Positions 29,283 through 63,660 of a stretch of DNA of 64,000 bases are shown one piece after another. Made by a program: the position numbers and the translations under genes. The DNA comes from Bacteroides eggerthii (GTDB taxonomy: Bacteria > Bacteroidota > Bacteroidia > Bacteroidales > Bacteroidaceae): positions 558,001-622,000 of the forward strand of contig NZ_CP102258.1 in assembly GCF_025146565.1 (NCBI RefSeq), written 5' to 3'. Under the pieces are notes generated by a model. That model was given only the letters and a program-made list of their open reading frames with translations. It made no database searches and was not told where the DNA came from. Every line of letters starts with the position of its first letter. Positions within the stretch are counted from its first letter, which is position 1.

Positions 29283-31556
29283 TTATGTGATTCCTAAATC
29301 TTTCTTGTCAGAAGCTCTATTTCTTAATGGTGATGTTGAAGTCTGATAAAAATTACCAGTATTCACATCTACATATTCAGGTTTATAGTTTGTAATACTC
29401 TTACTCCCCAATTTACCCCAAAAAGAAGCAATACACCCAGAATTATACAGATTAATATAAGATACTGACAATTTATCCCAACTCATCTCATTGAAACGAA
29501 TACTGGCTCCTCCCTTTCCACTGTTGGCAAAAGAACAATTAGTCACAGTAGCACTTTGTACTCCTATCAAACGCATAGCAGAACCTTGTTCTTTATTGTC
29601 CACATTTTCAATTGTACAATGGTTAACTGTCAGCAATGGTCCACTGGTGCTTTCATCATTTCCACCTCGATAAATATTCAAAGCACTACCTAATAATCGA
29701 TAAAATATACAATTACCAACATGTAACTCTTCTACATTGTATTTACCTTTATCATCTTTCTCTCCAGCAAAATTAATTGCTTCCCCTGACATGTCATGAA
29801 AAAAAGAATTCCGGATAATCACCATTGGTGAGAAAGTAGATTTTTCGCCACGAATGGCAGCCAAGCCAGATTCATTGAAATTATAGAATTCGCAATTATC
29901 AACAGTAAGTAAATAAGGAGTAATAGTACCTGATTTCACAGTTATACCACCTTCAGACAAAGCTTTCCCTGCCTCACCTTCACCATTGAAAGCAAGACCT
30001 TGTATTTCCAAGTTTCCACCATTGACAATGGTCACAAATGCTTTACCAGACATACCATTAAAACATAAAACGGGACGTTTAGATAAATGGGAGTCTGCTT
30101 GAATACGAATATATTTATCTATCAACAAAGTATTATCCAGCCAATAAACACCCTCTTCCGAGAGATTCAAAATATCACCGGACTGCGCTTTGTTAAAAGC
30201 CTCTAATAGCGTATTTTGTCCTGCCTTCACACTGATTTCATTACCAGTAAGCATCAATTTATGATTTTCAGAAAAAGTATACCAACTTGCACCGAGTTTT
30301 TTCTCCATATATGGCTTTAAATCAATACTATCTAATAAAGTCGTATTATTCTGAAAACCCCTTTGTGTTACGGTATAGGGATAATTCACCACATTATCAA
30401 TAAAAGTAAAGCCAGAAATATCATCAAAAGACTGATAAAGCGCTTTATCTGACTTACTAATGAACTGATTACGGATAAAAGAGATATTTGAGGGTGGTAA
30501 TGTACGTTCATTATCTTTTCCTACACAAAATAGGATATTATCACAATTAATAAAACGATTATCTTCTAACGTTACATCCTTTACATGATGATAACGGTTA
30601 GGTAAAGAATTAGGAACCGCATTCATCAACCCAAGAGCCGCAAAAAAACGATCACCTTTCAGCCCATAGAACAAATTCCCCTTAATAATATGGCCTTCAT
30701 TGACTACACGTACTCCGCCTGTACAAGGTAATCCATTTCCTATAAATGCGTTTCCTTCAACTAAATTACGGTTACCATGACGTAAAGCCAAAATACCACG
30801 ACATTCTAAAAATACATTATTACGAATAATGTTATCACTTGATTTGATAGAAACAACTTCAACTTCCCCATTACAATGGTGAAACATATTATCTTCTATC
30901 ACTGTATTCGAAGAAAAAAATGCATGATGTGAGGTTCCCACACGAATCGTTTCGCCCCCATTTGAGCCCAATATCGGGCGTTCACCGAAATAATTGTGAT
31001 CAATTCTATGATTATTATTACGGTCTCTCTCACCATTTAAAATAACAGCCAAAGTTACTCCTGCATAAAGCTTACCCAAAATAGAATTATGGTCCAGTCG
31101 ATTATTTCGTCCGTAAAGAAGAATCCAGCTCCCAGATACCCCACGATCTATCGGATTGAAGTAATCAATGACACAATCTGTTATACGGCAGTTGTTAGCA
31201 ACTTTTTCACCTTTACGAAACTCAATCACAGCTCCTTTAGGAGTGTAACCATTACGAAAATGCAATCCGTTTATTTCAACGTATTCTCCACATAAACGAA
31301 GATTAGATACACCTTCTATAAAAACACTGCCTGGTTGTTGAGTCATAACAACAATCGGCTCTTCTACCGTACCATACCCCTCGAGTTGTAACTGGATATT
31401 TGTATATGTACCTGATTTAATATAAATCGTATCACCTGGACGAGCCTTCTCCAAAGTATTTTGAAGAGAATTTAAGTCAATAGTCCAATTTCCTTGCGAA
31501 CATGCGGCCAACAAAGGAAAAATCCAACAAAGTTTAATAAATGATTTAAGCATCAC
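29283..31556 (-). CDS. Polysaccharide lyase family 6, alginate lyase (lipoprotein)
   Basis: Endo- or exolytic alginate lyase of the PL6/chondroitinase B family. Lipoprotein signal with lipobox LLAAC (Cys19), so membrane-anchored and probably on the cell surface. Parallel beta-helix 1 spans about residues 25-420; NGGETIRVGTSH (199-210), Asn199, Glu231, Glu233 (Ca2+ ligands), Lys238 and Arg259 (catalytic pair) have the same spacings as in chondroitinase B and the alginate lyase AlyGC. A second beta-helix fills about 430-757, as in two-domain PL6. Alginate is chosen over dermatan sulfate because PL17, KdgF and a DEH reductase are in the locus. Last gene of the susC operon. Confidence 0.85.
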   Translation of the reverse strand: MMLKSFIKLCWIFPLLAACSQGNWTIDLNSLQNTLEKARPGDTIYIKSGTYTNIQLQLEGYGTVEEPIVVMTQQPGSVFIEGVSNLRLCGEYVEINGLHFRNGYTPKGAVIEFRKGEKVANNCRITDCVIDYFNPIDRGVSGSWILLYGRNNRLDHNSILGKLYAGVTLAVILNGERDRNNNHRIDHNYFGERPILGSNGGETIRVGTSHHAFFSSNTVIEDNMFHHCNGEVEVVSIKSSDNIIRNNVFLECRGILALRHGNRNLVEGNAFIGNGLPCTGGVRVVNEGHIIKGNLFYGLKGDRFFAALGLMNAVPNSLPNRYHHVKDVTLEDNRFINCDNILFCVGKDNERTLPPSNISFIRNQFISKSDKALYQSFDDISGFTFIDNVVNYPYTVTQRGFQNNTTLLDSIDLKPYMEKKLGASWYTFSENHKLMLTGNEISVKAGQNTLLEAFNKAQSGDILNLSEEGVYWLDNTLLIDKYIRIQADSHLSKRPVLCFNGMSGKAFVTIVNGGNLEIQGLAFNGEGEAGKALSEGGITVKSGTITPYLLTVDNCEFYNFNESGLAAIRGEKSTFSPMVIIRNSFFHDMSGEAINFAGEKDDKGKYNVEELHVGNCIFYRLLGSALNIYRGGNDESTSGPLLTVNHCTIENVDNKEQGSAMRLIGVQSATVTNCSFANSGKGGASIRFNEMSWDKLSVSYINLYNSGCIASFWGKLGSKSITNYKPEYVDVNTGNFYQTSTSPLRNRASDKKDLGIT

Positions 31557-31583
31557 AAGCTATATATATTAAAGTTTCACTAG

Positions 31584-33164
31584 TTAACGAATTTTCATCG
31601 GATAATAAATACCCTCTGTCATTAATGAGAAATTATCTGTACGGAAAGGAGTTGCTGGGAAACCCTCTTTATTAAAAAGATTAGCTTCCGTCCAATTAGA
31701 CCAACCATAACGTACCGCAATAGGACGCTCTACAACATCAGACCAGACAAATACTTTTCCATCCCTAATTTCCGCTCTTGCCGATACAAAATTATAATCC
31801 GCCCCACAAATAGAAAAACCTTTCAATTCCTCGCCCAAAGCAGTCAAACCAGAATAAACAAAGTCAAAACTAATTTCTGCTTTATTGTCTTTTATTTGCA
31901 TTGATTTATATACCGGGCCTGAATATGGTACTTTTTTATCATATTGCAAATGCAAAGCACAGGATGCTAAACGTTCACCAATAGGTTTCTTATAAATAGG
32001 GTGTACATCGTTTTTCTCCCCTTTATCAATACTGACTACCATAGCAGTATTCTTTACTGTTTTCCATGTAAATAGCTGGGCATCACGTAACTCAGCCCAA
32101 TTTGGACGATCTTGCCAAAAAGGATGATCAAAATTCGACAACTGAACAAAATAAAATGGTAAATCAGGTTGATGAAAATCAGTACGCCATTGTCTAATTA
32201 ATGCTGGAAAAAGTACTCTATACTGCTCCGCCCGCTCTGCATTACCCTCGCCTTGATACCAAATTACACCTTTAGCCGTATAAGGAATAATACGCTGCAA
32301 CATAGTATGATACAATCCACAAGGGCGTTTATGATGTTTAGGGCCCACTGGTTCGAAAGGACGAACAACGTTTTTATATCCCATAGTCACTGAGTCATTA
32401 TAAACCCTATAAAGTACCTTATACTCCTCCATTTTTTTCTCATATAAGGTATCATCCATAATAGCAACTTTACGATAATTATCCAAAATAGGACGTAATT
32501 TATCATCTCTTTCCAGCGTCTCTTCTTTCACCCAAGCTTCAGCAGGCGTTCCACCACGATAACAACAAATGATACCAATAGGAACATTTAATTCTTTCTG
32601 AAGTTTACAAGCAAAATAATAACCGATGGCAGACATATTCGCAACTTGTGGCGCTGTTGCGGTCTGCCATTTCATTTCTTTATTAACATTATGCCCTTTA
32701 TAATATACTTGAGGTACTATTAGAAAATGAATATTCTGATTATTAGCTGAACGAACAACAGCTTCTCCATTTTCACTCATAAACAGCTTACGCTCCATAT
32801 TTGATTGTCCTGTTGCTAACCACACTTCTCCAACATACACTTCAGACAGTAGAACAGATTCATTTCCTGAAGTTACTTTTAACCGATATGGCCCCCCAGC
32901 AGCCAGATTCTTCAAAGACAACATCCAGCGCCCGTCAGGCTTAACTTCTGTCTTTACTTTTTGATTTTGAAATTCGACCTGTACTATAGCAAAAGGACGT
33001 CCTATTCCCCAAATATTATTTATATCTTCTTGCTGCAATACCATTCCTTCACCAAAAACTTCAGCTAAAGACAACTGGAAATTATTACCCGTGGAGACTC
33101 CCCAAAGGAGCCCCCAACAGATACAAATTTGCAAACATACAAATATACAACCTCTTTTCATCAT
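31584..33164 (-). CDS. Carbohydrate O-acetylesterase, SASA/sialate 9-O-acetylesterase-like
   Basis: SGNH-type esterase, 526 aa, with an N-terminal signal peptide. GQSNME holds the nucleophile Ser121; WYQGEGNA is the oxyanion block; DKGEKNDVHP holds the Asp and His of the triad. An N-terminal beta-sandwich (about 30-110) and C-terminal beta domain frame the catalytic core, as in sialate O-acetylesterases. Five bases separate it from susD and 27 from PL6, so it is in the operon. Nothing here handles sialic acid, so the likely substrate is O-acetyl groups on mannuronate, which bacterial but not algal alginates carry. That role is inference. Confidence 0.75.
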   Translation of the reverse strand: MMKRGCIFVCLQICICWGLLWGVSTGNNFQLSLAEVFGEGMVLQQEDINNIWGIGRPFAIVQVEFQNQKVKTEVKPDGRWMLSLKNLAAGGPYRLKVTSGNESVLLSEVYVGEVWLATGQSNMERKLFMSENGEAVVRSANNQNIHFLIVPQVYYKGHNVNKEMKWQTATAPQVANMSAIGYYFACKLQKELNVPIGIICCYRGGTPAEAWVKEETLERDDKLRPILDNYRKVAIMDDTLYEKKMEEYKVLYRVYNDSVTMGYKNVVRPFEPVGPKHHKRPCGLYHTMLQRIIPYTAKGVIWYQGEGNAERAEQYRVLFPALIRQWRTDFHQPDLPFYFVQLSNFDHPFWQDRPNWAELRDAQLFTWKTVKNTAMVVSIDKGEKNDVHPIYKKPIGERLASCALHLQYDKKVPYSGPVYKSMQIKDNKAEISFDFVYSGLTALGEELKGFSICGADYNFVSARAEIRDGKVFVWSDVVERPIAVRYGWSNWTEANLFNKEGFPATPFRTDNFSLMTEGIYYPMKIR

Positions 33165-33169
33165 TTTTA

Positions 33170-34627
33170 TCAGTTATAACCCTCGTTCTGAGATAAAATT
33201 TCTTTTCCTAACAAACGAATTTCACGTCCCGGAATAGGATAAAGCATTTGAAATCTTTCTACCTTAGTAAATTTCTGCTTTGGTAAAAGTCTAGAGTCCT
33301 GTCCGTGTGCTTCCATAATTCGAATCGTTTCAGATACTCCAACTACACGCTGTAAATCAAACCAACGTTGGTTTTCGAACGCAAACTCAAATTTACGTTC
33401 CTGAAGTAATTCATTTCTAGAAACCGAAGTTACGGGAAGATGCCCTGCACGTGCCCTCACTGCATTATAAACGGCTAAAGCATTCACATCATTAGTTATA
33501 TCATTCGCATAAGGTTCAGAGGGAGCACCTAATACCGCTTCAACATACATTAAAAGTACATCAGCATAACGTAAAATAGGAGCATCGGCAGCATTATCCT
33601 TTTGTGAAGGCTTAGTTCCCCTTTTCAAGTATTTACCACACACAATCCAAATACCCGCCTTATCTTCTTCCATTAAATTGGTCTGGCTACGTACAACATC
33701 ACTTTCACATTCCTCAGCGAATGGAGTAGTAGGTGTATTTAAACCTGAATTACCACCAAATACAGAAAAATCATAACTAAATGTTTGTCCTTCACCCGAA
33801 GTAGAATTAAATTGAACAGCAAATAATATCTCACTATTCCATTTAGTGCTTTCTGAGAATATAGAGCTATAGTCTGAAGCTAATCCTACTCCTGAAACAG
33901 TACTCTTGCTAGGATCTGACATATTAATCAACGTAGCAAGCAAAGTCTTTGCATCGGAATGACGACCTAAAGTAAGATATACTTTAGCAAGCAACGCTTT
34001 AGCTGCCATAGCATTTGCTTTGCCCTTAGTCATGTCAGGCAAATTATTTATAGCAAACTCTAAATCGGGAATAATGACAGTAGAATAAACCTCAGAAAGA
34101 GGCTTCCGGCGAAACATATCTGTTTCATTGGCATCTATCGTACGAGTAATAATAGGTAAATCCCCCCATAAACGAACCATATTAAAGTAAACTAATGCAC
34201 GTATAAAGCGTGCTTCACCTTCTATTCGGTTGCGAGTCACCTCATCATTTACTATACCCAAATTATCTATTACTAAGTTTGTACGGGAAAGAGCATTGAA
34301 ACAGGCTTTCCAATAATTATATACATCACCACTCTCAACAATATCTTTCACAAAAGTGTCAATATATCCAAACTCACCTTCTGCCAAATAAGAAGAAGAA
34401 AGATCTGAACGCATTTCCATCAATACATAATCATGATTCAAAGACATTTGTTGGAGACCGTCATAACAACCAACCAAAGCCAATTCAACATCACTTGTCT
34501 TATTAAAGAAGTTTGTTTGTGTCAAATCTGATTTAGGTTGTAAATCCAATGCATCCGTACAGGAAGCCAAAAATAAGCTTAAACCCAAACCTATTATATA
34601 TTTCATTTTTTTCATATCAGTCAACAT
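33170..34627 (-). CDS. SusD/RagB-family glycan-binding lipoprotein
   Basis: Outer-membrane lipoprotein that captures oligosaccharide for the partner SusC channel. Lipobox FLASC (Cys23 from the ATG at 34627; the ATG at 34615, giving MKKMKYIIGL, is an equally good start). TPR-like helices with the family patterns KACFNALSRTNLVIDN and RFIRALVYFNMVRLWG; C-terminal RKFEFAFENQRWFDLQR. 485 aa. Seven bases after susC. Predicted to bind alginate oligosaccharides from the context. Confidence 0.92.
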   Translation of the reverse strand: MLTDMKKMKYIIGLGLSLFLASCTDALDLQPKSDLTQTNFFNKTSDVELALVGCYDGLQQMSLNHDYVLMEMRSDLSSSYLAEGEFGYIDTFVKDIVESGDVYNYWKACFNALSRTNLVIDNLGIVNDEVTRNRIEGEARFIRALVYFNMVRLWGDLPIITRTIDANETDMFRRKPLSEVYSTVIIPDLEFAINNLPDMTKGKANAMAAKALLAKVYLTLGRHSDAKTLLATLINMSDPSKSTVSGVGLASDYSSIFSESTKWNSEILFAVQFNSTSGEGQTFSYDFSVFGGNSGLNTPTTPFAEECESDVVRSQTNLMEEDKAGIWIVCGKYLKRGTKPSQKDNAADAPILRYADVLLMYVEAVLGAPSEPYANDITNDVNALAVYNAVRARAGHLPVTSVSRNELLQERKFEFAFENQRWFDLQRVVGVSETIRIMEAHGQDSRLLPKQKFTKVERFQMLYPIPGREIRLLGKEILSQNEGYN

Positions 34628-34633
34628 TAGTAA

Positions 34634-37600
34634 TTAAAATTGAAAATTAAAGCCAAGCGTATAAGTACGAGCCAACGGCATTGCACCACTCTGATAACCA
34701 TCAATCAATGGAGTATCAAAGCTCTTAATACCTTCAGGATTATACCCTTTATAATCACCCAACAAGAAATAGCATGGATTATAAATAGACGCATAAACAC
34801 GTAATGAACAGTTCTTCATAATATTTTTAGGCAATGTATATCCTAAATTGATACTGCGTATTGCAATAAAAGAAGCATCCTCTACAAACCAGCAGGCTGA
34901 AGCTTTATGTTTGATATTATTATAGGAATTCTGGTACTCTGGCAACAATTTCCCATTCCATTGACTCTGAGCATAATGCTCATCAATATTAAATACTTTA
35001 TTACCATGTGACCCTTGAACCACTACATTTAAATCGAAATCTTTCCATTTTAAATCATTAGTCATACCCCAAGTTACTTTCGGATATGGAGAGCCCTGTG
35101 CTACCATATCATCATCGTCTATTTTTCCATTGCCGTCCAAGTCTTTAACATGTACCAATTCTGGTTTCACATCAACCGGCCATACAGGACTGATAAGCCC
35201 TTCGTTAGGAATCTCTTTTTCAACAACAAAGCCATAGAATTGAACTAAAGGTTTACCGACCTCAGTTACAAAATATGTAGGACGTTTTTCTTCTCCTTTA
35301 GGACTGCTTATAATCTTATCTACACCACCTAAGTTTAAAACCTTATTAAAGTTCTGTGCAATATTTAAACTTGTAGACCAAGAGAAATCCTTTGTTTGAA
35401 TATTCTGGGTTGTAATTTCAATTTCATAACCGGTATTACTCATTTTACCCATATTAACCAACTGGTTTGTTTGTCCCGTCATACTAGAGATCTCTCTTTC
35501 CAAAAGTAGTTTATCCGTTATCGTATAGTAAGCATCAAGATTAATTCTCAAACGATTATTAAACATACCCAAATCAAAACCACCATTATACTGATAAGTT
35601 CTCTCCCAACCCAAGTCTTTATTTTCACTGGAAATTTGTGTATATCCAGGAGTTACTTTATTATTGATTACAGCATTGGACTGTGAAAGAAGACCAAATG
35701 CTTGGTAATTACCAATATTTTTATTACCACTGGCACCAAAACTTGCTCTAATCTTTAATTCATCAATTATCTTCTTAACCGGAGTAAAGAATGATTCCTC
35801 AGAAATACGCCAACCTAAAGATACTGAAGGGAAATACCCCCATTTATTATTAATACCGAAACGAGAACTTCCATCCCAACGTGAACTTACAGAAGCAAGA
35901 TATTTACCTTTATAAGAATATGTGACACGTCCTAGTGCCGATAATAGCAGTTCCTCATACTCAGTAGTATTACCCGAGTTAATGATACCAGCATTCAAGG
36001 TTTGAATATTATCAGTCGGAAAGTCTGAAGCTGTCATATTGCTATTATAGCCTGTAGTCTTTTGAACTGTATAACCAGCCAATATACTTAAAGAATGATT
36101 TTCTCCTAAATTAGGAGTATAGGTCGCAATATTTTCATTCAACCAATCTATTACTTTTGCAGTTTTATATTGTCCGCTCGTTTTACCATTATTATGAGCT
36201 AAACTACTCTGATAAAATTTATAGTCCATCATAGAAGCATATCCACCAAAAGAACTTTTTAAAATCAAACCTTTAACAGGTTGATACTGTAAGTAGATAT
36301 TTCCTAAGGCTTTAATATAACCAGTTCTATCATTACGCTCTAAAGTAGTAGAAATACCATTATTACCACCAGCATTTTTTACACTAATATATTCTCCATT
36401 ATAAGGGACTTTCGAAAAATGATATTCATGAGCATAGTCACCTATATTTAATGTAGGATCAGACAAACGAGCCCATTCAATTGTCTCAGCAGTATGCCTT
36501 ACTGGGATGTACATAGCATCTCTAAATACCTGATTAATATTTGATTGAGATCCTGAACGATAAGCGCGTTGGGAATCAACAACTGCATTCACATTGACGC
36601 CGAATTCTAATTTATCATTAATCTTAGCATCAACCTTAGCATTTAAATTAAACTTTTTATAACGATCTGTTATAACAATTCCTTTCTCATCCAAAAAAGA
36701 ACCAGATGCGTAGTAGTTCACGTTTTTTGAACCGCCAGAAACACTAATCTGATGGTTCTGTATATATCCCAGTTTTATTGTTTCTTCTACCCAGTCAGTT
36801 TGAGTTCCCAAAACATCAGAAGCAACATAAACTTTTTTCATATCATCTACCATAGACGCATGAGCTCCACTGGTCGGTCTACCCATTTCTGCATATATTT
36901 GTTCTGCTTTTATCTTCCAATCTTCAGGACGTGTACGTTGTATTCCTTTCAACAGTCGCTCTTTAACACCACCATAACTATTTATGCGAATAGTAGGTTT
37001 AGAGCCTTCAGAGCTACCACTACGTGTAGTCACAATAATAATACCATTTGCACCTCTTGAACCATAAATAGCAGCTGATGCAGCATCTTTCAATACCTCA
37101 ATAGATTCTACATCATTCATATCAACATCTGACAAATCTCCTGGGATAGGATAACCGTCTACTACGATCAGAGGATTCGTATCTGCAGAAATAGACCCAA
37201 TACCACGTATCTGAATTTTAGGACTAGCTCCCGATTGCGCTGAAACATTTTGAATTTGCACACCCGCCAATTTACCAACTAACGCCTGGTCTGCACGAGA
37301 AACGGGCAATTGCCCCAGATTCTCATTTTTAATTTTTGAAATAGAACCTGTTAAATGAGATTTCTTCTGAACACCATAACCAACCACTACTACTTCATCT
37401 AGCTGTTGTTGATCCTCAGTCAAAGTTACATTTATTTTTGGCTGTCCTTTGCAAGCTACTTCTTTCTGAGTAAACCCGATATATGAAAATACAAGAATGT
37501 CTGCTTCTAAATCTGGTACACTAATTGAGTAATTTCCATCAATATCAGTAATACATCCAATAGTAGTCCCCTTTACAAGAATATTCACACCAGGCAAAGG

Positions 37601-37741
37601 CGAATGTGTCACATCTATAACTTGGCCTGTCACAATTTTCGTTTGGGCAAAAATCGCCATACCATACAGTTGCATCCAGCAAAACATGATTAACAAAAAA
37701 GTTCGCCGAGAAGCAGTTTGAAATAATTGTCTGTTCTTCAT
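34634..37741 (-). CDS. SusC/RagA-family TonB-dependent receptor
   Basis: Outer-membrane importer of alginate oligosaccharides, predicted from its neighbours. 1035 aa: signal peptide (1-33), carboxypeptidase-regulatory-like domain (about 36-115), plug domain beginning with the TonB-box-like VVVVGYGVQKK (about 118-128), PGDLSDVDMNDVESIEVLKDAASAAIYG-type plug core, GSRGANGIIIVTT, and a 22-strand barrel ending in Phe. First gene of a four-gene minus-strand operon. Its promoter (37868-37898) carries the TTGG-N4-CCAA palindrome. Base composition is clearly more AT-rich than genes outside the locus. Confidence 0.93.
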   Translation of the reverse strand: MKNRQLFQTASRRTFLLIMFCWMQLYGMAIFAQTKIVTGQVIDVTHSPLPGVNILVKGTTIGCITDIDGNYSISVPDLEADILVFSYIGFTQKEVACKGQPKINVTLTEDQQQLDEVVVVGYGVQKKSHLTGSISKIKNENLGQLPVSRADQALVGKLAGVQIQNVSAQSGASPKIQIRGIGSISADTNPLIVVDGYPIPGDLSDVDMNDVESIEVLKDAASAAIYGSRGANGIIIVTTRSGSSEGSKPTIRINSYGGVKERLLKGIQRTRPEDWKIKAEQIYAEMGRPTSGAHASMVDDMKKVYVASDVLGTQTDWVEETIKLGYIQNHQISVSGGSKNVNYYASGSFLDEKGIVITDRYKKFNLNAKVDAKINDKLEFGVNVNAVVDSQRAYRSGSQSNINQVFRDAMYIPVRHTAETIEWARLSDPTLNIGDYAHEYHFSKVPYNGEYISVKNAGGNNGISTTLERNDRTGYIKALGNIYLQYQPVKGLILKSSFGGYASMMDYKFYQSSLAHNNGKTSGQYKTAKVIDWLNENIATYTPNLGENHSLSILAGYTVQKTTGYNSNMTASDFPTDNIQTLNAGIINSGNTTEYEELLLSALGRVTYSYKGKYLASVSSRWDGSSRFGINNKWGYFPSVSLGWRISEESFFTPVKKIIDELKIRASFGASGNKNIGNYQAFGLLSQSNAVINNKVTPGYTQISSENKDLGWERTYQYNGGFDLGMFNNRLRINLDAYYTITDKLLLEREISSMTGQTNQLVNMGKMSNTGYEIEITTQNIQTKDFSWSTSLNIAQNFNKVLNLGGVDKIISSPKGEEKRPTYFVTEVGKPLVQFYGFVVEKEIPNEGLISPVWPVDVKPELVHVKDLDGNGKIDDDDMVAQGSPYPKVTWGMTNDLKWKDFDLNVVVQGSHGNKVFNIDEHYAQSQWNGKLLPEYQNSYNNIKHKASACWFVEDASFIAIRSINLGYTLPKNIMKNCSLRVYASIYNPCYFLLGDYKGYNPEGIKSFDTPLIDGYQSGAMPLARTYTLGFNFQF

Positions 37742-37858
37742 AAAACTATAAAATTAATGATTAACAATAAATATATATCACAATAAGATAATAATCCTAA
37801 TAGTAGTTTTACCATCTTCCATAGCCATTCGCTACAGAAAAGTTGATCACTGCACAAA

Positions 37859-37870
37859 TTGGTTTGCCAA
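37859..37870 (-). promoter_or_regulatory. Putative GntR operator at the susC promoter
   Basis: TTGGCAAACCAA on the minus strand. Its first three bases are the last three of the -7 box TATTTTTG (37868-37875), so a bound repressor would block polymerase. Same motif and placement at 38178-38189 and 44106-44117. Confidence 0.65.
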
Positions 37871-37898
37871 AAATAATAGTATTTTTAATAATATCAAA
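37868..37898 (-). promoter_or_regulatory. susC operon promoter TTTG-N19-TATTTTTG
   Basis: Minus strand: TTTG (37895-37898), 19 bases, TATTTTTG (37868-37875). The transcript would start near 37861, giving a leader of about 120 bases. Confidence 0.75.
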
Positions 37899-38148
37899 GT
37901 AAAAAGAAGAAAAATATAAAATAAATCATATTACCACATAAGGGTTCTATAAATAACGATATACACATAAAATAGTACGCGTACATTATTATATCATTAA
38001 GCAAAAATCAATATAATATACTAATAATCAACATATTTATATTTAAACAAAGAAAGCAAAAGAAGAAAGGGAACAATCATAAAAAGTGCGCACAAAAAAA
38101 TATTAGGTGAACCTATGATAAAAAACATAAAAAATATCTGGTATTTTA

Positions 38149-38180
38149 TTTGCTCAAAATAAAATTAACCACTATTTTTG
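38149..38180 (+). promoter_or_regulatory. PL17 operon promoter TTTG-N20-TATTTTTG
   Basis: TTTG (38149-38152), 20 bases, TATTTTTG (38173-38180). The ATG at 38210 lies 29 bases past the -7 box. Confidence 0.75.
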
Positions 38181-38189
38181 GAAAACCAA
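38178..38189 (+). promoter_or_regulatory. Putative GntR operator at the PL17 promoter
   Basis: TTGGAAAACCAA, overlapping the last three bases of the -7 box exactly as at the susC promoter; the flanks (TATTTT before, TTT after) also match. Confidence 0.65.
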
Positions 38190-38209
38190 TTTAAAACAAA
38201 GAAATACTC

Positions 38210-40372
38210 ATGAAAACAAAAAGTATTCTAACAACTATTTTCTTATTTCTGGCATTTACAATCCAGGCCAAGTTACCAGAGCATCCCTGCTTATTGCTTA
38301 CTCAAAAAGGAATTGAAAAAATAAAAGCTCAAAATAAGCCGGCTATGCTATTCAATACGACATTAACTCAAATAAAAAATCAAATATATCCTATCTTAAA
38401 ACAACCGATAGAAGTTCCACTTCCTAAAGACGCAGGAGGTGGCTATACACACGAACAACATAAGCGCAACTATAATAACATGTATAATGCAGGTGTACTT
38501 TTCCAATTAACTGAAAAAAAAGAATATGCGGAATATGTAAAAAAAATGCTTATACAATATGCAGAAATGTATCCTAATCTACCCTTACATCCAATTCAAA
38601 AATCTAATTATAGAGGAAAGCTCTTTTGGCAAGGGTTAAATGAATGTGTTTGGTTAGTATACACATCTCAAGCCTATGATTGTATATATAATTACTTAAA
38701 TCCCAAAGAAAGAGAGTTTATTGAAAATAATTTATTTAAGCCAATGGTTGAATTTATCGCTATACACAATAAATCCACATTCGAAAAAATTCACAACCAC
38801 GCTACCTGGGCAGTAACAGGAGTGGGGATGATTTCCTATGTTATGGGAGATAAAGATATGCTAGAGAAAGCATTATATGGACTAGATAAAAGCGGAAAAA
38901 GTGGTTTTATTAGGCAAATAGATCAACTTTTTTCACCCGACGGATATTTCGAGGAAGGGCCTTATTATCAGAGATATTCATTACAGCCATTCATTATGTT
39001 TGCTCAAGCTATTGAGAACAATGAGCCTGAAAGAAAAATATTTGAATATAAAAATGGAGTAATATTAAAAGCCGTCACTACCCTATTACAAATGTCTGAA
39101 AACAACGGCCAATTCTTTCATTTCAATGACGCTTTAGACAAGACCTGGCACAGTACAGAGTTAGTTTGGGGTATTGATATCTCCTATAATAGAACAGGCA
39201 ACAAACAACTATTATCTATAGCAAAAGAACAAAATACTGTTATCCTAAATGAAGCTGGATATAAAGTTGCTACTGACATAGAACTTGCACAACCTTTTAT
39301 ACATCAAACAATGGTCATAAGCGATGGAGCCAAAGGCGACGAGGGTGGCATTGGAATTCTACGCTGCCCAAATAAAAATAATGAAAGCTGTGTAGCTCTA
39401 AAATACACATCACAGGGTATGGGACATGGACACTTTGATAGGTTATCATTTACCTATTACGACAATAATAAAGAAATAATACAAGACTACGGGGCTGCAC
39501 GTTTTTTAAATATAGAGCCTAAAAATGGCGGCCATTATTTACCTGAAAATAATAGCTTTAGTAAGCAAACAATAGGGCATAACACCCTAATAGTCGACGA
39601 AACCAGCCACTTCAATGGTAAATTGGACGAAGCATCAAAATACTCTCCCACATTCTATGCTTTCATCAATGGCGAACAGGTAAAAATGATCAGTGCAAAA
39701 GACAAACACGCTGTTCCCGGAGTAACTATGCAGCGAAATCTACTGCTAATCTCCCATCCTGCTTTTGAACATCCTCTCATTATTGATATATTCAAAATAA
39801 TTTCACAAAAAAAACATCAATACGATTTGCCTTATTATTATAAAGGGCATCTCATTAATACTGATTATAAATACAACGCATTCGATACAACTCGCACTTT
39901 GTTAGGCAGCAAAAACGGATACCAACATTTATGGATAGAAGCACAAGGAAACCCCAGGCAAGAGACAACTTCTACCACTTGGTTAAACGATAATAGATTC
40001 TATACATTAACCGCTGTAACCGATGAAAATACAGAGATATTTCTAACCAGAATTGGTGGTAACGACCCTAACTTCAATTTGAGAAACGATCCTTGCTTAA
40101 TGTTTCGCCAGAAAGAGAGTGATAATCATACATTCGTATCTCTCATAGAAGCACACGGAGAATACAACCCACGTCTGGAATATACATTAGCTCCTTACAC
40201 AAACGTACAAAACATCCAAATTATAATGGACACAGAGGAATATACTATCCTCAAAGTTACAACTAAAAATAAACAGGCCATAACTATCTGTTTTGCGAAT
40301 ACAGATAATAATCCACATTCTGTACATAAAATAAGAGATTATAGCTGGCAAGGAGTCTGCGAAATAAAATAA
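38210..40372 (+). CDS. Polysaccharide lyase family 17, oligoalginate lyase
   Basis: Exolytic lyase that cuts alginate oligosaccharides to unsaturated monouronate. Signal peptide MKTKSILTTIFLFLAFTIQA with a cleavable AQA site, so periplasmic. The N-terminal (alpha/alpha) barrel has Asn196-His197 (NHATW) and Tyr253 (GPYYQRY), and the C-terminal beta-sandwich has His408, Asp426 and His457; these spacings equal those of the catalytic Asn201/His202/Tyr258 and Zn-binding His415/Asp433/His464 of Alg17C. 720 aa, full length. First gene of the plus-strand operon PL17-cupin-MFS-SDR. Confidence 0.9.
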   Translation: MKTKSILTTIFLFLAFTIQAKLPEHPCLLLTQKGIEKIKAQNKPAMLFNTTLTQIKNQIYPILKQPIEVPLPKDAGGGYTHEQHKRNYNNMYNAGVLFQLTEKKEYAEYVKKMLIQYAEMYPNLPLHPIQKSNYRGKLFWQGLNECVWLVYTSQAYDCIYNYLNPKEREFIENNLFKPMVEFIAIHNKSTFEKIHNHATWAVTGVGMISYVMGDKDMLEKALYGLDKSGKSGFIRQIDQLFSPDGYFEEGPYYQRYSLQPFIMFAQAIENNEPERKIFEYKNGVILKAVTTLLQMSENNGQFFHFNDALDKTWHSTELVWGIDISYNRTGNKQLLSIAKEQNTVILNEAGYKVATDIELAQPFIHQTMVISDGAKGDEGGIGILRCPNKNNESCVALKYTSQGMGHGHFDRLSFTYYDNNKEIIQDYGAARFLNIEPKNGGHYLPENNSFSKQTIGHNTLIVDETSHFNGKLDEASKYSPTFYAFINGEQVKMISAKDKHAVPGVTMQRNLLLISHPAFEHPLIIDIFKIISQKKHQYDLPYYYKGHLINTDYKYNAFDTTRTLLGSKNGYQHLWIEAQGNPRQETTSTTWLNDNRFYTLTAVTDENTEIFLTRIGGNDPNFNLRNDPCLMFRQKESDNHTFVSLIEAHGEYNPRLEYTLAPYTNVQNIQIIMDTEEYTILKVTTKNKQAITICFANTDNNPHSVHKIRDYSWQGVCEIK

Positions 40373-40403
40373 CGCAAATAATAACTATTAAAAAAACAAC
40401 ATT

Positions 40404-40748
40404 ATGAAAACATGTAGTAAAGTTTTTCTATTAGAAAATGAAATAAGTTGGGAACAAGTTGGTGAAGGTATTCAAAGGCAAATACTCGGATATGACGGAC
40501 AACTCATGCTAGTAAAAGTGAAATTTCAGAAAGGGGCTATTGGAAACGCCCATGAGCATTTTCATTCCCAATCCACCTATGTTGTTAGTGGAGTGTTCGA
40601 ATTTCATGTAAACGGAGAGAAGAAAATAGTCAAAGCCGGAGATGGAATCTATATGGAACCGGATGTCTTACATGGTTGTACCTGTCTCGAAGCTGGTATT
40701 TTAATTGATACCTTTAGCCCAATGCGTGAAGATTTTATAAACGAATAA
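40404..40748 (+). CDS. kdgF: KdgF-type cupin, unsaturated uronate ring-opening protein
   Basis: Single-domain cupin of 114 aa. KdgF speeds the conversion of 4,5-unsaturated monouronate (from pectin or alginate lyases) to the linear keto form, DEH. The metal-binding residues are in place: His50, His52, Gln56 (GNAHEHFHSQ) and His90 (DVLHGC). No signal peptide, so cytoplasmic. 31 bases after PL17 and 5 bases before the MFS gene, in an operon with them. Other small cupins share this fold, but the setting makes KdgF the best reading. Confidence 0.85.
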   Translation: MKTCSKVFLLENEISWEQVGEGIQRQILGYDGQLMLVKVKFQKGAIGNAHEHFHSQSTYVVSGVFEFHVNGEKKIVKAGDGIYMEPDVLHGCTCLEAGILIDTFSPMREDFINE

Positions 40749-40753
40749 CTATC

Positions 40754-42220
40754 ATGAAAATCAAAGGTGTAAGATGGTGGATTATTGGGCTAATCATGCT
40801 CATTACCATCATAAACTATTTGGATAGAGGTACTCTAAATTATATGTGGGTAGCCAATATTGAATACACTCTAACAGACTCTTTTAATCCTAGTCTTAGA
40901 GTGAACCAAGCCACTCAGATAAATGAGCAAACCTATCTTTTAACCAACGGTCAAGGCCATGAGATTCAAGTTGAAGCAAGTAGAATCTCACTAAAGGAGA
41001 AAAATGGCCAGACAATGGTAATAAACAAAGAGGGAATTGCCTATGATTTAGGACTAATCAGTACTGATTTGTCTACTGAAGAAGCTGCCAAGCAAGCTAA
41101 AGATATACTAGGAACGATTACCATATTTTTTATGATAGCTTATGGTATAAGCCAGTTAGTATCTGGAAAAATGTATGACAAAATTGGTACAAGAAAAGGA
41201 TTCTTCGTTTCTGTATTATTATGGGGAGCCGCAGATGCCATGACATCACTATCACGAGGCATCCTTTCATTAACAACATTTCGTATGATGCTGGGATTAG
41301 GAGAAGCCGGTCCATGGCCAGGAACCACTAAAAGTAACGCTGAATGGTTTCCACAGAAGGAACGTGCATTAGCACAAGGTTTATTTGGTGCAGCAGCTTC
41401 GTTGGGTTCTATTTTTGCACCCATCATTATACTCATGCTGTATATTACACTTGGATGGAAGCTTACATTTGTAGTTGTCGGTGGTTTCGGTTTATTATGG
41501 CTAATTCCATGGATTATCATCAACAAAAAAGGACCTAAAGAACACCCATGGATTACTGATAAAGAAAAAGAATACATATTAACTGGACAACCGGAAATCA
41601 AGATTACCAATGACAAAGGCAAAGGCTGGAGAGAATTATTATCAAACAAAAAAAACTGGTCTGTTATTTTAGGACGTTTTTTTCTTGATCCCATTTGGTG
41701 GATGTTTGTCACTTATCTACCACTCTATCTAGCTGATGTCTTCAAACTTAATATTAAGGAAGTAGCATTCTCCGCATGGGTTCCTTATGTAGGCGCAATG
41801 GTTGGTAGTATTGCCGGTGGATGGATGTCAGGCTTTTTAATCCGAAAAGGAAAAAGTGTTGATTATTCACGTAAAGCTGCCATGTTATTGGGTGGATTTA
41901 TTATCATCCCTTCTATAATTGCAGCCGTTTATTCTACAACTTCTATTATGGCAGTTATCTTTATGGCTTTCGTCTTGGGAGGTTTTCAATTTGTCATGAC
42001 GAATATTCAAACAATACCCAGCGATCTACACTCCGGAAAATCCGTTGGCTCATTAGCAGGTCTAGGTGGTGCATCAGCCGTATTAGGAACTATTCTAGCA
42101 ATATTATTTGCCCAATACATCACAAACTGGCTATTATTATTCTCACTACTTGCAGCATTAGTTCCATTATCATTATTATCCATATTTTTGACTGTCGGTA
42201 AAATAGAACAAATAAAATAA
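40754..42220 (+). CDS. MFS transporter for unsaturated uronate, with large loop 1-2 insert
   Basis: Major-facilitator permease of the anion:cation symporter (ExuT/hexuronate) type; predicted to take unsaturated monouronate from periplasm to cytoplasm. NYLDRGTLNY after helix 1 and GKMYDKIGTRKGFF in loop 2-3 are family signatures, as is LGLGEAGPWPGTTKSNAEWFP. Odd: about 65-75 extra residues (about 40-110), polar and beta-rich, separate helix 1 from helix 2, where ExuT-type proteins have a short loop; the N-terminal topology puts this insert in the periplasm. 488 aa. Follows KdgF by 5 bases. Confidence 0.85.
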   Translation: MKIKGVRWWIIGLIMLITIINYLDRGTLNYMWVANIEYTLTDSFNPSLRVNQATQINEQTYLLTNGQGHEIQVEASRISLKEKNGQTMVINKEGIAYDLGLISTDLSTEEAAKQAKDILGTITIFFMIAYGISQLVSGKMYDKIGTRKGFFVSVLLWGAADAMTSLSRGILSLTTFRMMLGLGEAGPWPGTTKSNAEWFPQKERALAQGLFGAAASLGSIFAPIIILMLYITLGWKLTFVVVGGFGLLWLIPWIIINKKGPKEHPWITDKEKEYILTGQPEIKITNDKGKGWRELLSNKKNWSVILGRFFLDPIWWMFVTYLPLYLADVFKLNIKEVAFSAWVPYVGAMVGSIAGGWMSGFLIRKGKSVDYSRKAAMLLGGFIIIPSIIAAVYSTTSIMAVIFMAFVLGGFQFVMTNIQTIPSDLHSGKSVGSLAGLGGASAVLGTILAILFAQYITNWLLLFSLLAALVPLSLLSIFLTVGKIEQIK

Positions 42221-42252
42221 AGTTACACATATTCATTAAACTAAAAAATAAT

Positions 42253-43005
42253 ATGAAATTACAAGGTAAAGTAGCCATCGTAACAGGTGGAGCACGTGAT
42301 TTGGGACGTGCAATCTCAATCAAATTCGCTCAAGAAGGAGCTAAAGTAGCTGTAAACTATTTCGACAACCCGGAAGATGCAGCAGAAACTTTAAAATTAA
42401 TTCAGGCTGCAGGGTCTGAAGGAATTATTGTACAAGGTGATATGACAAAAGCAACTGATGTCAAAAATCTATTTGACAAAGCTATTGAAGCATTTGGAAA
42501 TCACATTGATGCATTAGTTAATGTTGTTGGTGGAATTGTTGGTCGCAAATTAGTAACAGAACAAGACGAAACTTGGTATGACTTTTTAATGGATGTAAAT
42601 ATGCGTAGCGTATTTCTATGCACCCGCGAAGCTGTACCGTACATGAGTGCCGGATCTACCATTGTCAATTTTTCGTCTCTTGCAGCCCGTGATGGTGGCG
42701 GTCCTGGAGCATCTATGTATGCAACTGCCAAAGGTGCTGTTATGACTTACACACGTGCTATGGCCAAGGAACTTGGTCCCAAAGGAATACGTGTCAACGC
42801 ATTAGCTCCCGGCACAATAGCTACATCATTCCACGATCGCTTCAATACACCAGAAAACAGAGAACGACTGAAAGCCACATATGCCCTCCGTCGTGAAGGT
42901 GAAGCAAAAGAAGTGGCAGATCTAGTAATCTACCTTTCATCCGAGGATTCCTCTTATATTACTGGTGCAAACATAGATATTAATGGTGGTAGTTTCTTCT
43001 CATAA
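42253..43005 (+). CDS. SDR oxidoreductase, predicted DEH reductase
   Basis: Classical short-chain dehydrogenase, 250 aa: TGGARDLG (11-18) binds the nucleotide, Ser141/142, Tyr156 and Lys160 (YATAK) form the active site. In alginate loci of Bacteroidota and proteobacteria an SDR of this kind reduces 4-deoxy-L-erythro-5-hexoseulose uronate (DEH) to 2-keto-3-deoxygluconate (KDG); that role is assigned here from context. Last gene of the PL17 operon, followed by a bidirectional terminator (43034-43067). NADH or NADPH preference not decided. Confidence 0.82.
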   Translation: MKLQGKVAIVTGGARDLGRAISIKFAQEGAKVAVNYFDNPEDAAETLKLIQAAGSEGIIVQGDMTKATDVKNLFDKAIEAFGNHIDALVNVVGGIVGRKLVTEQDETWYDFLMDVNMRSVFLCTREAVPYMSAGSTIVNFSSLAARDGGGPGASMYATAKGAVMTYTRAMAKELGPKGIRVNALAPGTIATSFHDRFNTPENRERLKATYALRREGEAKEVADLVIYLSSEDSSYITGANIDINGGSFFS

Positions 43006-43033
43006 AACAATTCAAAATAAATAATATATAAAG

Positions 43034-43067
43034 ATGGCAGGAGCCCAATATTGGCTCCTGCCATTTT
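43034..43067. terminator. Bidirectional terminator between SDR and dehydrogenase genes
   Basis: Perfect 12-bp stem ATGGCAGGAGCC/GGCTCCTGCCAT with a 7-base loop; TTTT follows on the plus strand and an AT-rich tract on the minus strand. The flanking genes converge. Confidence 0.8.
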
Positions 43068-43079
43068 AATATAAAATAT

Positions 43080-44036
43080 CTATTTTGTAACAGGTGAGAG
43101 GAGAGTTTTTCCTTCAAAGTAATTTATAATATTCTGAAGGGCATAACGAGTGCTTTCTACACGTGTATCAATAGTCCCTGTGCCATTATGAGGTGATAAT
43201 AGCACATTATCAAGCTGTAATAATTCCGAAGGTATTTCAGGCTCATTTTCAAATACATCCAACCCCGCACCAAATATTCTTTTTTTTTGAAGAAAATGTA
43301 TCAATACTCTTTCATTAATCAGATTTCCCCTAGCTGTGTTTATCAATACCACAGAAGGTTTCATTAGTTTAAACTGTTGTATATCAATCATGTGATAGGT
43401 TTCTGAAGTCGCTGGGGCATGTAATGATATAAAATCAGATGTAGCTAACAATTCATTCAAACTGACCCAATCAGCCTCATACGCATTTTCAATTTCTTGA
43501 GATAATCTTTTTCTATTATAATATATAATTCTCATACCACAAGCAGAAGCTCTTCTTGCCAAAGCTTGCCCTATCGCTCCCATACCAACTATCCCTAAAG
43601 TCTTTCCATATAAACTGATTCCAAGATTTTCCATCACATCAATTTCTATTCCTCTTGATGAACGTAATTTCCTATCACATTCAGAAATTCTTCTAGCCAC
43701 ATTCAATAACAAGGAAAAAGCCAGCTCAGCCGTTGGTTCAATAACCGGTTTCGGAGAATTGGTTACCAAAATTCCTTTTGTAATAGCATAATTAACATCT
43801 ATATTATCATAACCTGCTCCAAAGTTTGCAATAATCTCCAAGTTAGTAGCACGATCTATAATTTCTTTAGTTACCTTAAATGCATAAGTAGGAAGCAAAG
43901 CATCACAACGCCCAATCCATCTATCAAGCATACAGCTACTAATCAATCCTTTATCAGGCATAATAATTTTATAATCATTTACAATTGTTTCAAAAGCCAC
44001 TTTAGGAAGCTGATGAGTCACAAGAATCGTTTTCAT
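43080..44036 (-). CDS. D-isomer-specific 2-hydroxyacid dehydrogenase
   Basis: NAD(P)-dependent reductase of 2-keto acids, 318 aa. GIVGMGAIG (148-156) binds the nucleotide; Arg236, Glu265 and His283 are the catalytic residues, with the same spacing as in glycerate dehydrogenase. It is cytoplasmic. It lies in the alginate locus between the SDR and the regulator, and its promoter carries the same palindrome as susC and PL17, so it should be induced with them. Its substrate may be a 2-keto acid of the pathway (KDG itself, pyruvate or glyoxylate-like); this is open. Confidence 0.82.
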   Translation of the reverse strand: MKTILVTHQLPKVAFETIVNDYKIIMPDKGLISSCMLDRWIGRCDALLPTYAFKVTKEIIDRATNLEIIANFGAGYDNIDVNYAITKGILVTNSPKPVIEPTAELAFSLLLNVARRISECDRKLRSSRGIEIDVMENLGISLYGKTLGIVGMGAIGQALARRASACGMRIIYYNRKRLSQEIENAYEADWVSLNELLATSDFISLHAPATSETYHMIDIQQFKLMKPSVVLINTARGNLINERVLIHFLQKKRIFGAGLDVFENEPEIPSELLQLDNVLLSPHNGTGTIDTRVESTRYALQNIINYFEGKTLLSPVTK

Positions 44037-44105
44037 ATATACTACTAAAAAAATGTTTTACTATGACAACCTAATATACTTTTATGCAAAAATAAGTTTC
44101 CAGAA

Positions 44106-44117
44106 TTGGAAAACCAA
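44106..44117 (-). promoter_or_regulatory. Putative GntR operator, third copy
   Basis: TTGGTTTTCCAA on the minus strand (TTGGAAAACCAA on the plus). It overlaps the last three bases of the minus-strand -7 box TATATTTG (44115-44122), as at the other two promoters. It is also about 140 bases upstream of the gntR gene. Confidence 0.65.
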
Positions 44118-44122
44118 ATATA
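44115..44122 (-). promoter_or_regulatory. -7 box TATATTTG of the 2-hydroxyacid dehydrogenase gene
   Basis: Minus-strand TAnnTTTG; a weak TTTT stands 18 bases upstream in place of the -33. Leader about 70 bases. Confidence 0.5.
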
Positions 44123-44227
44123 AGCTAAAAAAAGAATACTAAAACACTTAGCCGATCTCCAATCTAAACCGAATATATTTTCTAACATTTTGTTGAATCT
44201 ATAAAAGAAGTATTTTGAATTAATTTG

Positions 44228-44235
44228 TATCTTTG
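44228..44235 (+). promoter_or_regulatory. -7 box TATCTTTG of the GntR gene
   Basis: Perfect TAnnTTTG 22 bases before the ATG at 44258; no good -33 at the usual spacing. Confidence 0.5.
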
Positions 44236-44257
44236 CAAACATTTAATAAATTAACAT

Positions 44258-44971
44258 ATGACTGATATATTGAAGCTTTTAGAACCTGCTGGCGAAAATG
44301 CAACTGATGATATCATCAGACAAATTCGCTTTTTACTTGACTCTGGCGATTTACAACCTGGGGACAAACTTCCGGCTGAGCGTAAATTAGCTGAAAAGTT
44401 CCAAGTTGCACGTTCTCAGGTAAGGGAAGCATTTAAAAAACTAGAGTTTTATAATATCATTAAAACAATGCCACAAAGTGGCTCGGTAATCTCGGCCATT
44501 GAGTCTACTGCTTTAAATAGCTTAATCAGTGACATTTTAAAAATGGACAATTGCGACTTCCACTCTTTAGTAGAAGCCCGTTCTATTATTGAAATTAATG
44601 CTGCAAAACTTTGCGCAATTCGTCGTACAGAAGAAGATCTGAAAATGATAGAGAGCGCAATGAACAACTATAACAAAAAAATAAAAGAATGCGGTTCTGC
44701 ATTAGAAGAAGATTTATACTTTCATCGTACTATTGCTGAAGGTTCTAAAAATACAGTATTAAAATCTATGATGATGACAATTACACCTGACATCATGGTA
44801 AATTATGCTAAATTTAATGTTTGTAAGACAAATTTTGAGATCCCAATAAGTGAGCATCGTCTTCTTTTCGAATATATTAAAAATAACAATGCAGAAGCAG
44901 CTAGTAATATTATGAGTCAGCACCTTACAGGAGTACTAAATTTTGCTAAAACACAACAAATTGCCCTCTAG
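44258..44971 (+). CDS. GntR-family regulator, FadR subfamily
   Basis: Transcription factor of 237 aa. Winged helix-turn-helix at about residues 17-78 (LQPGDKLPAERKLAEKF, then ARSQVREAFKKLE), followed by an all-helical FCD ligand domain (about 90-230) with the Asp/His metal-site pattern (LYFHRTIAEGS, ISEHRLLFEYI). The subfamily includes ExuR/UxuR, which sense uronates and bind AATTGGTATACCAATT-like sites. It is predicted to sense an alginate breakdown product and to bind the TTGG-N4-CCAA sites of this locus. No hybrid two-component sensor, the usual PUL regulator, is present. Confidence 0.85.
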   Translation: MTDILKLLEPAGENATDDIIRQIRFLLDSGDLQPGDKLPAERKLAEKFQVARSQVREAFKKLEFYNIIKTMPQSGSVISAIESTALNSLISDILKMDNCDFHSLVEARSIIEINAAKLCAIRRTEEDLKMIESAMNNYNKKIKECGSALEEDLYFHRTIAEGSKNTVLKSMMMTITPDIMVNYAKFNVCKTNFEIPISEHRLLFEYIKNNNAEAASNIMSQHLTGVLNFAKTQQIAL

Positions 44972-63589: not shown

Positions 63590-63660
63590 TTGGACTACCA
63601 AGATTCGAACTTGGACAAACAGAACCAAAACCTGTTGTGCTACCATTACACCATAGTCCA
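63590..63660 (-). tRNA. tRNA-Gln (anticodon TTG)
   Basis: On the minus strand the acceptor stem TGGACTA pairs with TAGTCCA; a D-arm (GGTGTAATGGTAGCAC), an anticodon arm with loop TTTTGGT (anticodon TTG, reading CAA) and a T-arm with GTTCGAATC are present. CCA is not encoded. It has its own promoter (63691-63722). Confidence 0.92.

Follow-up and report, generated by a model that had tools for sequence, protein, structure and literature searches.

The described system closest to the one considered here is that of AusR in Zobellia galactanivorans, which the papers citing it characterize as a GntR repressor of an alginate polysaccharide utilization locus (PUL) with single, double and triple operators, whose binding is prevented by alginate breakdown intermediates (PMC8286568, PMC7874173). 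In E. coli, PdhR belongs to the FadR subfamily of GntR regulators (PMC4494728) and has the box AATTGGTnnnACCAATT (PMC7660256), and UxuR and ExuR are members of the same subfamily with TKGT/ACMA boxes (PMC4494728). The consensus given for sigma-ABfr promoters is TAnnTTTG at -7 and TTTG near -33 (PMC7366714). Here we analyse a 64-kb stretch of Bacteroides eggerthii DNA (hereafter the window), in which open reading frames (ORFs) and Pfam domains delimit an alginate utilization locus at 29283-44971 that contains a gntR gene and three palindromes of the form TTGG-N4-CCAA (table 1). Its minus-strand genes are susC-susD-CE20-PL6 and a 2-hydroxyacid dehydrogenase gene, and its plus-strand genes are PL17-kdgF-MFS-SDR and gntR, SDR denoting a short-chain dehydrogenase/reductase. 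These ten gene types are identical to those of the alginate PUL of B. eggerthii DSM 20697, listed as GntR, glyoxylate reductase, SDR/oxidoreductase, MFS, KdgF, PL17, SusC, SusD, CE20 and PL6; that paper describes the enzymes and names the GntR gene, and in its text as available there is no operator and no occurrence of the word 'palindrom' (PMC11381880).

We consider it very likely that the GntR protein encoded at the end of the locus uses the three palindromes as operators, from which it would exclude polymerase at three operons until an alginate product relieved repression. Comparative genomics lends strong support to the original prediction of a three-operon regulon under a FadR-subfamily GntR protein, and the three palindromes on which it was built are all exact in form and position. 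Mechanistically, a GntR dimer would bind TTGG-N4-CCAA (family consensus ATTGGTYRACCAAT), the TTG of which would be common to the site and a sigma-ABfr box, i.e. a -7 box in the case of susC and PL17 and, for the dehydrogenase gene, probably a -33 box. The bound repressor would keep RNA polymerase off the susC-susD-CE20-PL6, PL17-kdgF-MFS-SDR and dehydrogenase promoters, thus probably blocking all three structural promoters, and an intracellular alginate product, i.e. the unsaturated monomer, 4-deoxy-L-erythro-5-hexoseulose uronate (DEH) or 2-keto-3-deoxygluconate (KDG), would release it. The position of the sites, their conservation and their occurrence together with gntR are observed, whereas we infer binding, repression and effector from AusR and from the pathway.

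What sets the three sites apart is where they lie and not how many matches the window contains. Four matches to TTGG-N4-CCAA were seen where shuffled sequences average 1.54, and at least four occurred in 9 of 100 shuffles; the raw count is not significant and was dropped as evidence, and matches with one mismatch show no excess over chance either (27 vs 31). The fourth match (63590-63601) falls inside a tRNA-Gln gene, and we attribute it to chance. The shuffles would allow that AT-rich promoter DNA together with the TTTG of the boxes simply yields TTGG-N4-CCAA by accident, an explanation that we find barely credible for three reasons: the two gaps (468 and 221 bp, 22.6% GC) hold three sites where a first-order Markov model expects 0.0036 (Poisson P about 7e-9, with no correction for having chosen the pattern), the motif persists at loci with GntR proteins that are only about 40-50% identical, and coding and non-coding DNA contrast sharply in its frequency (see below). 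The whole genome holds 54 such sites vs 43 for a reversed control pattern. Among the 53 that were classified, all but eight (45 sites) are inside ORFs of 150 aa or more, and the three alginate sites belong to the eight; the proposed genome search for the motif at -7 boxes, i.e. for TAnnTTTGG-N4-CCAA, returned just these three of the 53. Of the other five sites outside such ORFs, none of which has the -7 register, one is in the tRNA-Gln gene, two are in shorter ORFs (103 and 142 aa), one (L115) is in repeat-like sequence and one (L131) is at a possible promoter; no regulon targets beyond the locus are claimed.

On the transcribed strand, the first three bases of each palindrome are also those that end a TAnnTTTG sequence, which had been taken as a -7 box in all three cases. 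At susC and PL17 this holds, and both are good promoters because a TTTG -33 box precedes the -7 box, with a spacer of 19 bp at susC and 20 bp at PL17. At the dehydrogenase gene, the box in question has no TTG upstream at spacers 17-23, and because a second TAnnTTTG lies 20 bp downstream, the palindrome more likely sits on a -33 TTTG than on a -7 box; its TATATTTGG could act in either register. The dehydrogenase gene of locus L111 has the same 20-bp spacing, but there the box falls past the called start codon, so that support from it is weak. Each structural promoter of the locus thus has one putative operator. The candidate -7 box of gntR carries no palindrome, and any autoregulation would have to act from the dehydrogenase operator, some 110 bp further upstream. 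All three window operators combine one perfect TTGGT half with one deviating half (TTGGA or TTGGC) and are less regular than those of most relatives.

The motif is conserved among relatives. With the single protein sequence as query, at E values of 1e-20 or lower, 4 of 301 family genomes gave a GntR match, and a scan for related loci with this protein gave two close ones. With a profile, at E values of 1e-40 or lower, matches came from 12 of 393 genomes of the order, 17 of 395 of the class and 10 of 149 of the genus, these last three samples overlapping and including the window's own genome. The surroundings of the matches, taken in pieces of at most about 20 kb, provided 42 relative loci for comparison, not counting the B. 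clarus copy L106, whose proteins from gntR to susC are 98-100% identical to those of the window. Perfect sites number 74 in 79,377 intergenic bp vs 22 in 659,157 coding bp, with at least one intergenic site in 36 of the 42 loci. When all inverted repeats with 4-base arms and a centre of 0-10 bp are ranked by the number of loci that have them, TGGT-N2-ACCA comes first with 37 loci and TTGG-N4-CCAA next with 36, above T-runs; these two are one motif in two frames. The full TTGGT-NN-ACCAA occurs at 63 intergenic sites in 32 of the 42 loci. Among the six loci lacking a perfect intergenic site, three (L077, L079, L103) have sites with a single mismatch, two perfect sites of L091 are masked by overlapping ORF calls, and the genome of L095 carries its sites on another contig, three of them perfect and located before susC at the alginate locus L174; the 11.7-kb contig L085, where no site was found, is the only unexplained miss. 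The comparison of related alginate promoters that the original prediction had called for therefore gives 36 of 42 loci with a perfect site and five of six misses that can be explained. Relatives show single, double and triple operators, mostly 13-17 or 22 bp apart (15-16 bp in 14 of the 24 neighbour pairs within 60 bp).

Protein and operator both point to the FadR subfamily. An N-terminal GntR winged helix-turn-helix (PF00392, 55 bits vs a cut-off of 27) is joined to a C-terminal FCD domain (PF07729, 73.3 vs 24.3 bits). FCD residues D152, H156, H200 and H222 are kept in 46 of 46 aligned GntR proteins; in FCD proteins, such Asp and His residues are ligands of a metal and of a small acid. UxuR and ExuR serve uronate pathways. 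A uronate-type effector is plausible here. The wing residues S74 and G75 are kept in 42 and 45 of the 46, and R42 and R52, matched by eye to the FadR positions Arg35 and Arg45 that contact bases (PMC4494728, Table 1), in 45, with one gap. The relatives' operator consensus, ATTGGTYRACCAAT, is the PdhR half-site ATTGGT/ACCAAT around a 2-bp centre, which in the PdhR box has 3 bp (PMC7660256); PdhR itself senses pyruvate and is not a PUL regulator. The TKGT/ACMA pattern with a centre of 2-3 nt is present in relatives and in one half of each window site. ExuR and UxuR sites had been likened to the palindromes as equally spaced, which is true of UxuR (2 nt between GT and AC) and not of ExuR (3 nt; PMC4494728). 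With NCBIfam scores of 86.6 bits for PdhR (cut-off 330) and of 60 and 53.9 bits for UxuR/ExuR (cut-offs 442 and 396), the window protein reaches no NCBIfam cut-off, and measured in this way it is none of PdhR, LldR, UxuR or ExuR. It shares traits with AusR as published, i.e. a gntR gene inside an alginate PUL with PL17, KdgF and SusCD and one to three putative operators at alginate promoters, which relatives likewise have as single, double or triple sites. It would act like AusR, of which it is probably an orthologue or close relative. The window differs from the AusR system in its Bacteroides-type PUL and an additional 2-hydroxyacid dehydrogenase operon.

An alternative would be that the palindromes serve another regulator, e.g. 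a LacI protein, a hybrid two-component system (HTCS) or a FadR-type protein encoded elsewhere, with the adjacent GntR gene being incidental. LacI proteins have indeed been predicted over uronate genes in B. thetaiotaomicron (PMC3878776), and LacI genes adjoin some alginate loci. Of 390 class genomes, 18 have a PL17 match; 16 of them also have the GntR gene and two have PL17 only, and one GntR genome has no PL17 match, in samples that differ slightly in size and with at most seven candidates scored by the GntR search in the genomes listed. At the two loci without GntR (L170, L171), PL17, KdgF, MFS and SusCD genes (in L170 also SDR) lie next to a LacI-family gene and there is no intergenic palindrome; therefore the motif accompanies the regulator and not the enzymes, as seen in two genomes of one family. 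Since the motif thus tracks GntR across the class, and since TTGGT-NN-ACCAA is of the FadR-subfamily TKGT/ACMA type with a half-site identical to that of PdhR, we judge control by such another regulator to be improbable, and operators of the GntR protein remain our preferred reading. The LacI genes at 12105-13127 of L170 and 5269-6282 of L171 may reflect a regulator swap from GntR to LacI.

How the operators relate to promoters across the class was assessed with 93 site-gene pairs, i.e. perfect intergenic sites, including those of the window, that have a called gene start no more than 400 bp away, by scanning for -7 boxes 70 bp to either side. The -7 register, in which the operator's TTG is also that of TAnnTTTG, occurs in 15 pairs from 12 loci including the window, vs 19 of 563 intergenic TTGGs outside palindromes (Fisher P 1e-5), and in 12 of 88 pairs if the window is set aside (P 3e-4). 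A TTG at -33 spacing (17-23) accompanies 13 of these 15 pairs vs 17 of the 78 others, and therefore they are probably true promoters. In 12 pairs the operator occupies the -33 position, with TAnnTTTG 19 bp (eight) or 20 bp (four) downstream of its TTG: two at L022 and one each at L024, L026, L088, L090, L107-L110, L111 and the window dehydrogenase gene. Six of these come from near relatives (L024, L026, L107-L110), and two also involve the -7 register, namely the window dehydrogenase and the L088 promoter, the latter with adjacent operators on its two boxes. Between 10 and 40 bp, downstream -7 spacers are 19 (eight), 20 (four), 23 (one), 35 (seven) and 38 (one), the seven at 35 being the upstream partners of six spacer-19 sites and one spacer-20 site. 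Some GntR proteins both activate and repress, and the frequent location of relatives' operators in the -33 region would suit a protein that binds these sites in order to activate, or to do both. As overlap with the -7 box at susC and PL17 favours polymerase exclusion, and as AusR is described as a repressor, we think this scarcely likely and retain repression. Overlap of operator and box is recurrent without being universal, because many pairs show neither geometry. Whether alginate GntR operators in the class Bacteroidia are generally fused to sigma-ABfr boxes, with the TTG of TTGGT ending a -7 or -33 TTTG, is for us an evenly balanced question. If so, any promoter would be few mutations short of being repressible, as both boxes end in TTTG, and a regulon would easily be assembled as alginate loci move among bacteria.

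Several observations weigh against the regulon or its promoter geometry. Column shuffling leaves a modest excess in the -7 register, 15 vs 8.7 expected (P 0.005) and 12 vs 7.6 without the window (P 0.03), with 11 vs 5.3 (P 0.003) in the 69 dissimilar pairs; 78 of the 93 pairs lie outside this register, and many pairs come from related loci. The window operators deviate from the TNNA centre of relatives, in which the inner T is present at 135 of 148 half-sites. Around the aldolase gene for 2-keto-3-deoxy-6-phosphogluconate (L151) there is no site within one mismatch of TTGGTNNACCAA. Four PL17 loci lie apart from gntR in genomes that have it: L174 has three intergenic sites, L172 has one perfect site, but within a 112-aa ORF call, L173 and L175 have no intergenic site, and LacI genes are nearby in L172 and L175. 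Therefore not every alginate gene set is under a GntR operator. Some GntR loci (e.g. L080 and L104) have none of the other sought alginate genes in the fetched stretch, and the sole intergenic site of L080, 6.7 kb from gntR, may be chance.

Individual genomes illustrate possible variants. In G749, the gntR contig (L095) has no nearby site and three operators (L174, 15881, 15895 and 16118) precede susC elsewhere, which could indicate control in trans. In G794, gntR and two palindromes are found at L091 and a separate PL17 locus with LacI and no intergenic palindrome at L175, so that two regulators may share the alginate genes. L104, L112 and L084 combine GntR relatives and palindromes without PL17, KdgF, MFS or SDR in the searched stretch, and the operator may thus be common to repressors of other polysaccharide loci.

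Control by a GntR protein had originally been put forward as a departure from HTCS or SusR control of PULs; this claim falls, since the GntR repressor AusR had already been published for the Zobellia alginate PUL, as the papers citing it describe. What appears to be new is that a Bacteroides-type locus has such a regulon, that its operator is conserved and that the operator is fused with sigma boxes: among the titles, abstract openings and passages looked at, no GntR operator of a Bacteroides alginate locus was reported, and neither operator conservation across the class nor fusion with sigma-ABfr boxes was found in print; the exact letters TTGGTATACCAA occurred in two papers, both unrelated by title. 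For the alginate locus of a gut-type Bacteroides, the analysis yields predictions of the switch, of the letters of its operator and of the regulon at the locus, and it suggests how repressors fit the unusual Bacteroidetes promoter. The class-wide motif may also help to locate targets controlled in trans, of which G749 is a possible case.

Table 1. Genes, operators and promoter boxes of the alginate locus (window coordinates)
Feature	Position	Strand	Evidence or remark
PL6-type lyase, last gene of susC operon	29283-31556	-	PF14592 (Chondroitinas_B), 354 bits; PL6 label by synteny with B. eggerthii PUL (PMC11381880)
CE20/SASA-type esterase	31584-33164	-	PF03629
SusD homologue	33170-34627	-	PF07980, PF14322
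SusC homologue, leader of operon 1	34634-37741	-	PF07715, PF13715
Putative operator 1, TTGGCAAACCAA (transcribed strand), on susC -7 box	37859-37870	-	also in B. clarus copies L020, L106
susC -7 box, TATTTTTG	37868-37875	-	-33 TTTG at 37895-37898, spacer 19
PL17 -33 box, TTTG	38149-38152	+	spacer 20
PL17 -7 box, TATTTTTG	38173-38180	+	
Putative operator 2, TTGGAAAACCAA, on PL17 -7 box	38178-38189	+	
PL17 oligoalginate lyase, leader of operon 2	38210-40372	+	PF05426, PF07940; NF042990 at E 1.9e-225, yet under its cut-off
KdgF-like cupin	40404-40748	+	PF07883; KdgF label by synteny (PMC11381880)
MFS transporter	40754-42220	+	PF07690
SDR reductase, candidate DEH reductase	42253-43005	+	PF13561
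D-2-hydroxyacid dehydrogenase (glyoxylate-reductase-like), operon 3	43080-44036	-	PF02826, PF00389
Likely dehydrogenase -7 box, TATTTTTG	44087-44094	-	20 bp downstream of TTG of operator 3
Putative operator 3, TTGGTTTTCCAA (transcribed strand), at dehydrogenase promoter	44106-44117	-	
TATATTTG, TTG common with operator 3	44115-44122	-	originally taken as -7 box; TTTG at 44115-44118 likelier a -33 box
Candidate gntR -7 box, TATCTTTG	44228-44235	+	no palindrome on it
FadR-subfamily GntR regulator, predicted repressor	44258-44971	+	winged helix-turn-helix and FCD; PF00392, PF07729

Within the second operon, the SDR protein is, judging from the pathway, a candidate DEH reductase. The regulon would also tie the otherwise unexplained 2-hydroxyacid dehydrogenase to alginate; this gene has BLAST matches only in the closest annotated loci (L020, L106 and L111), and it has a putative operator of its own.

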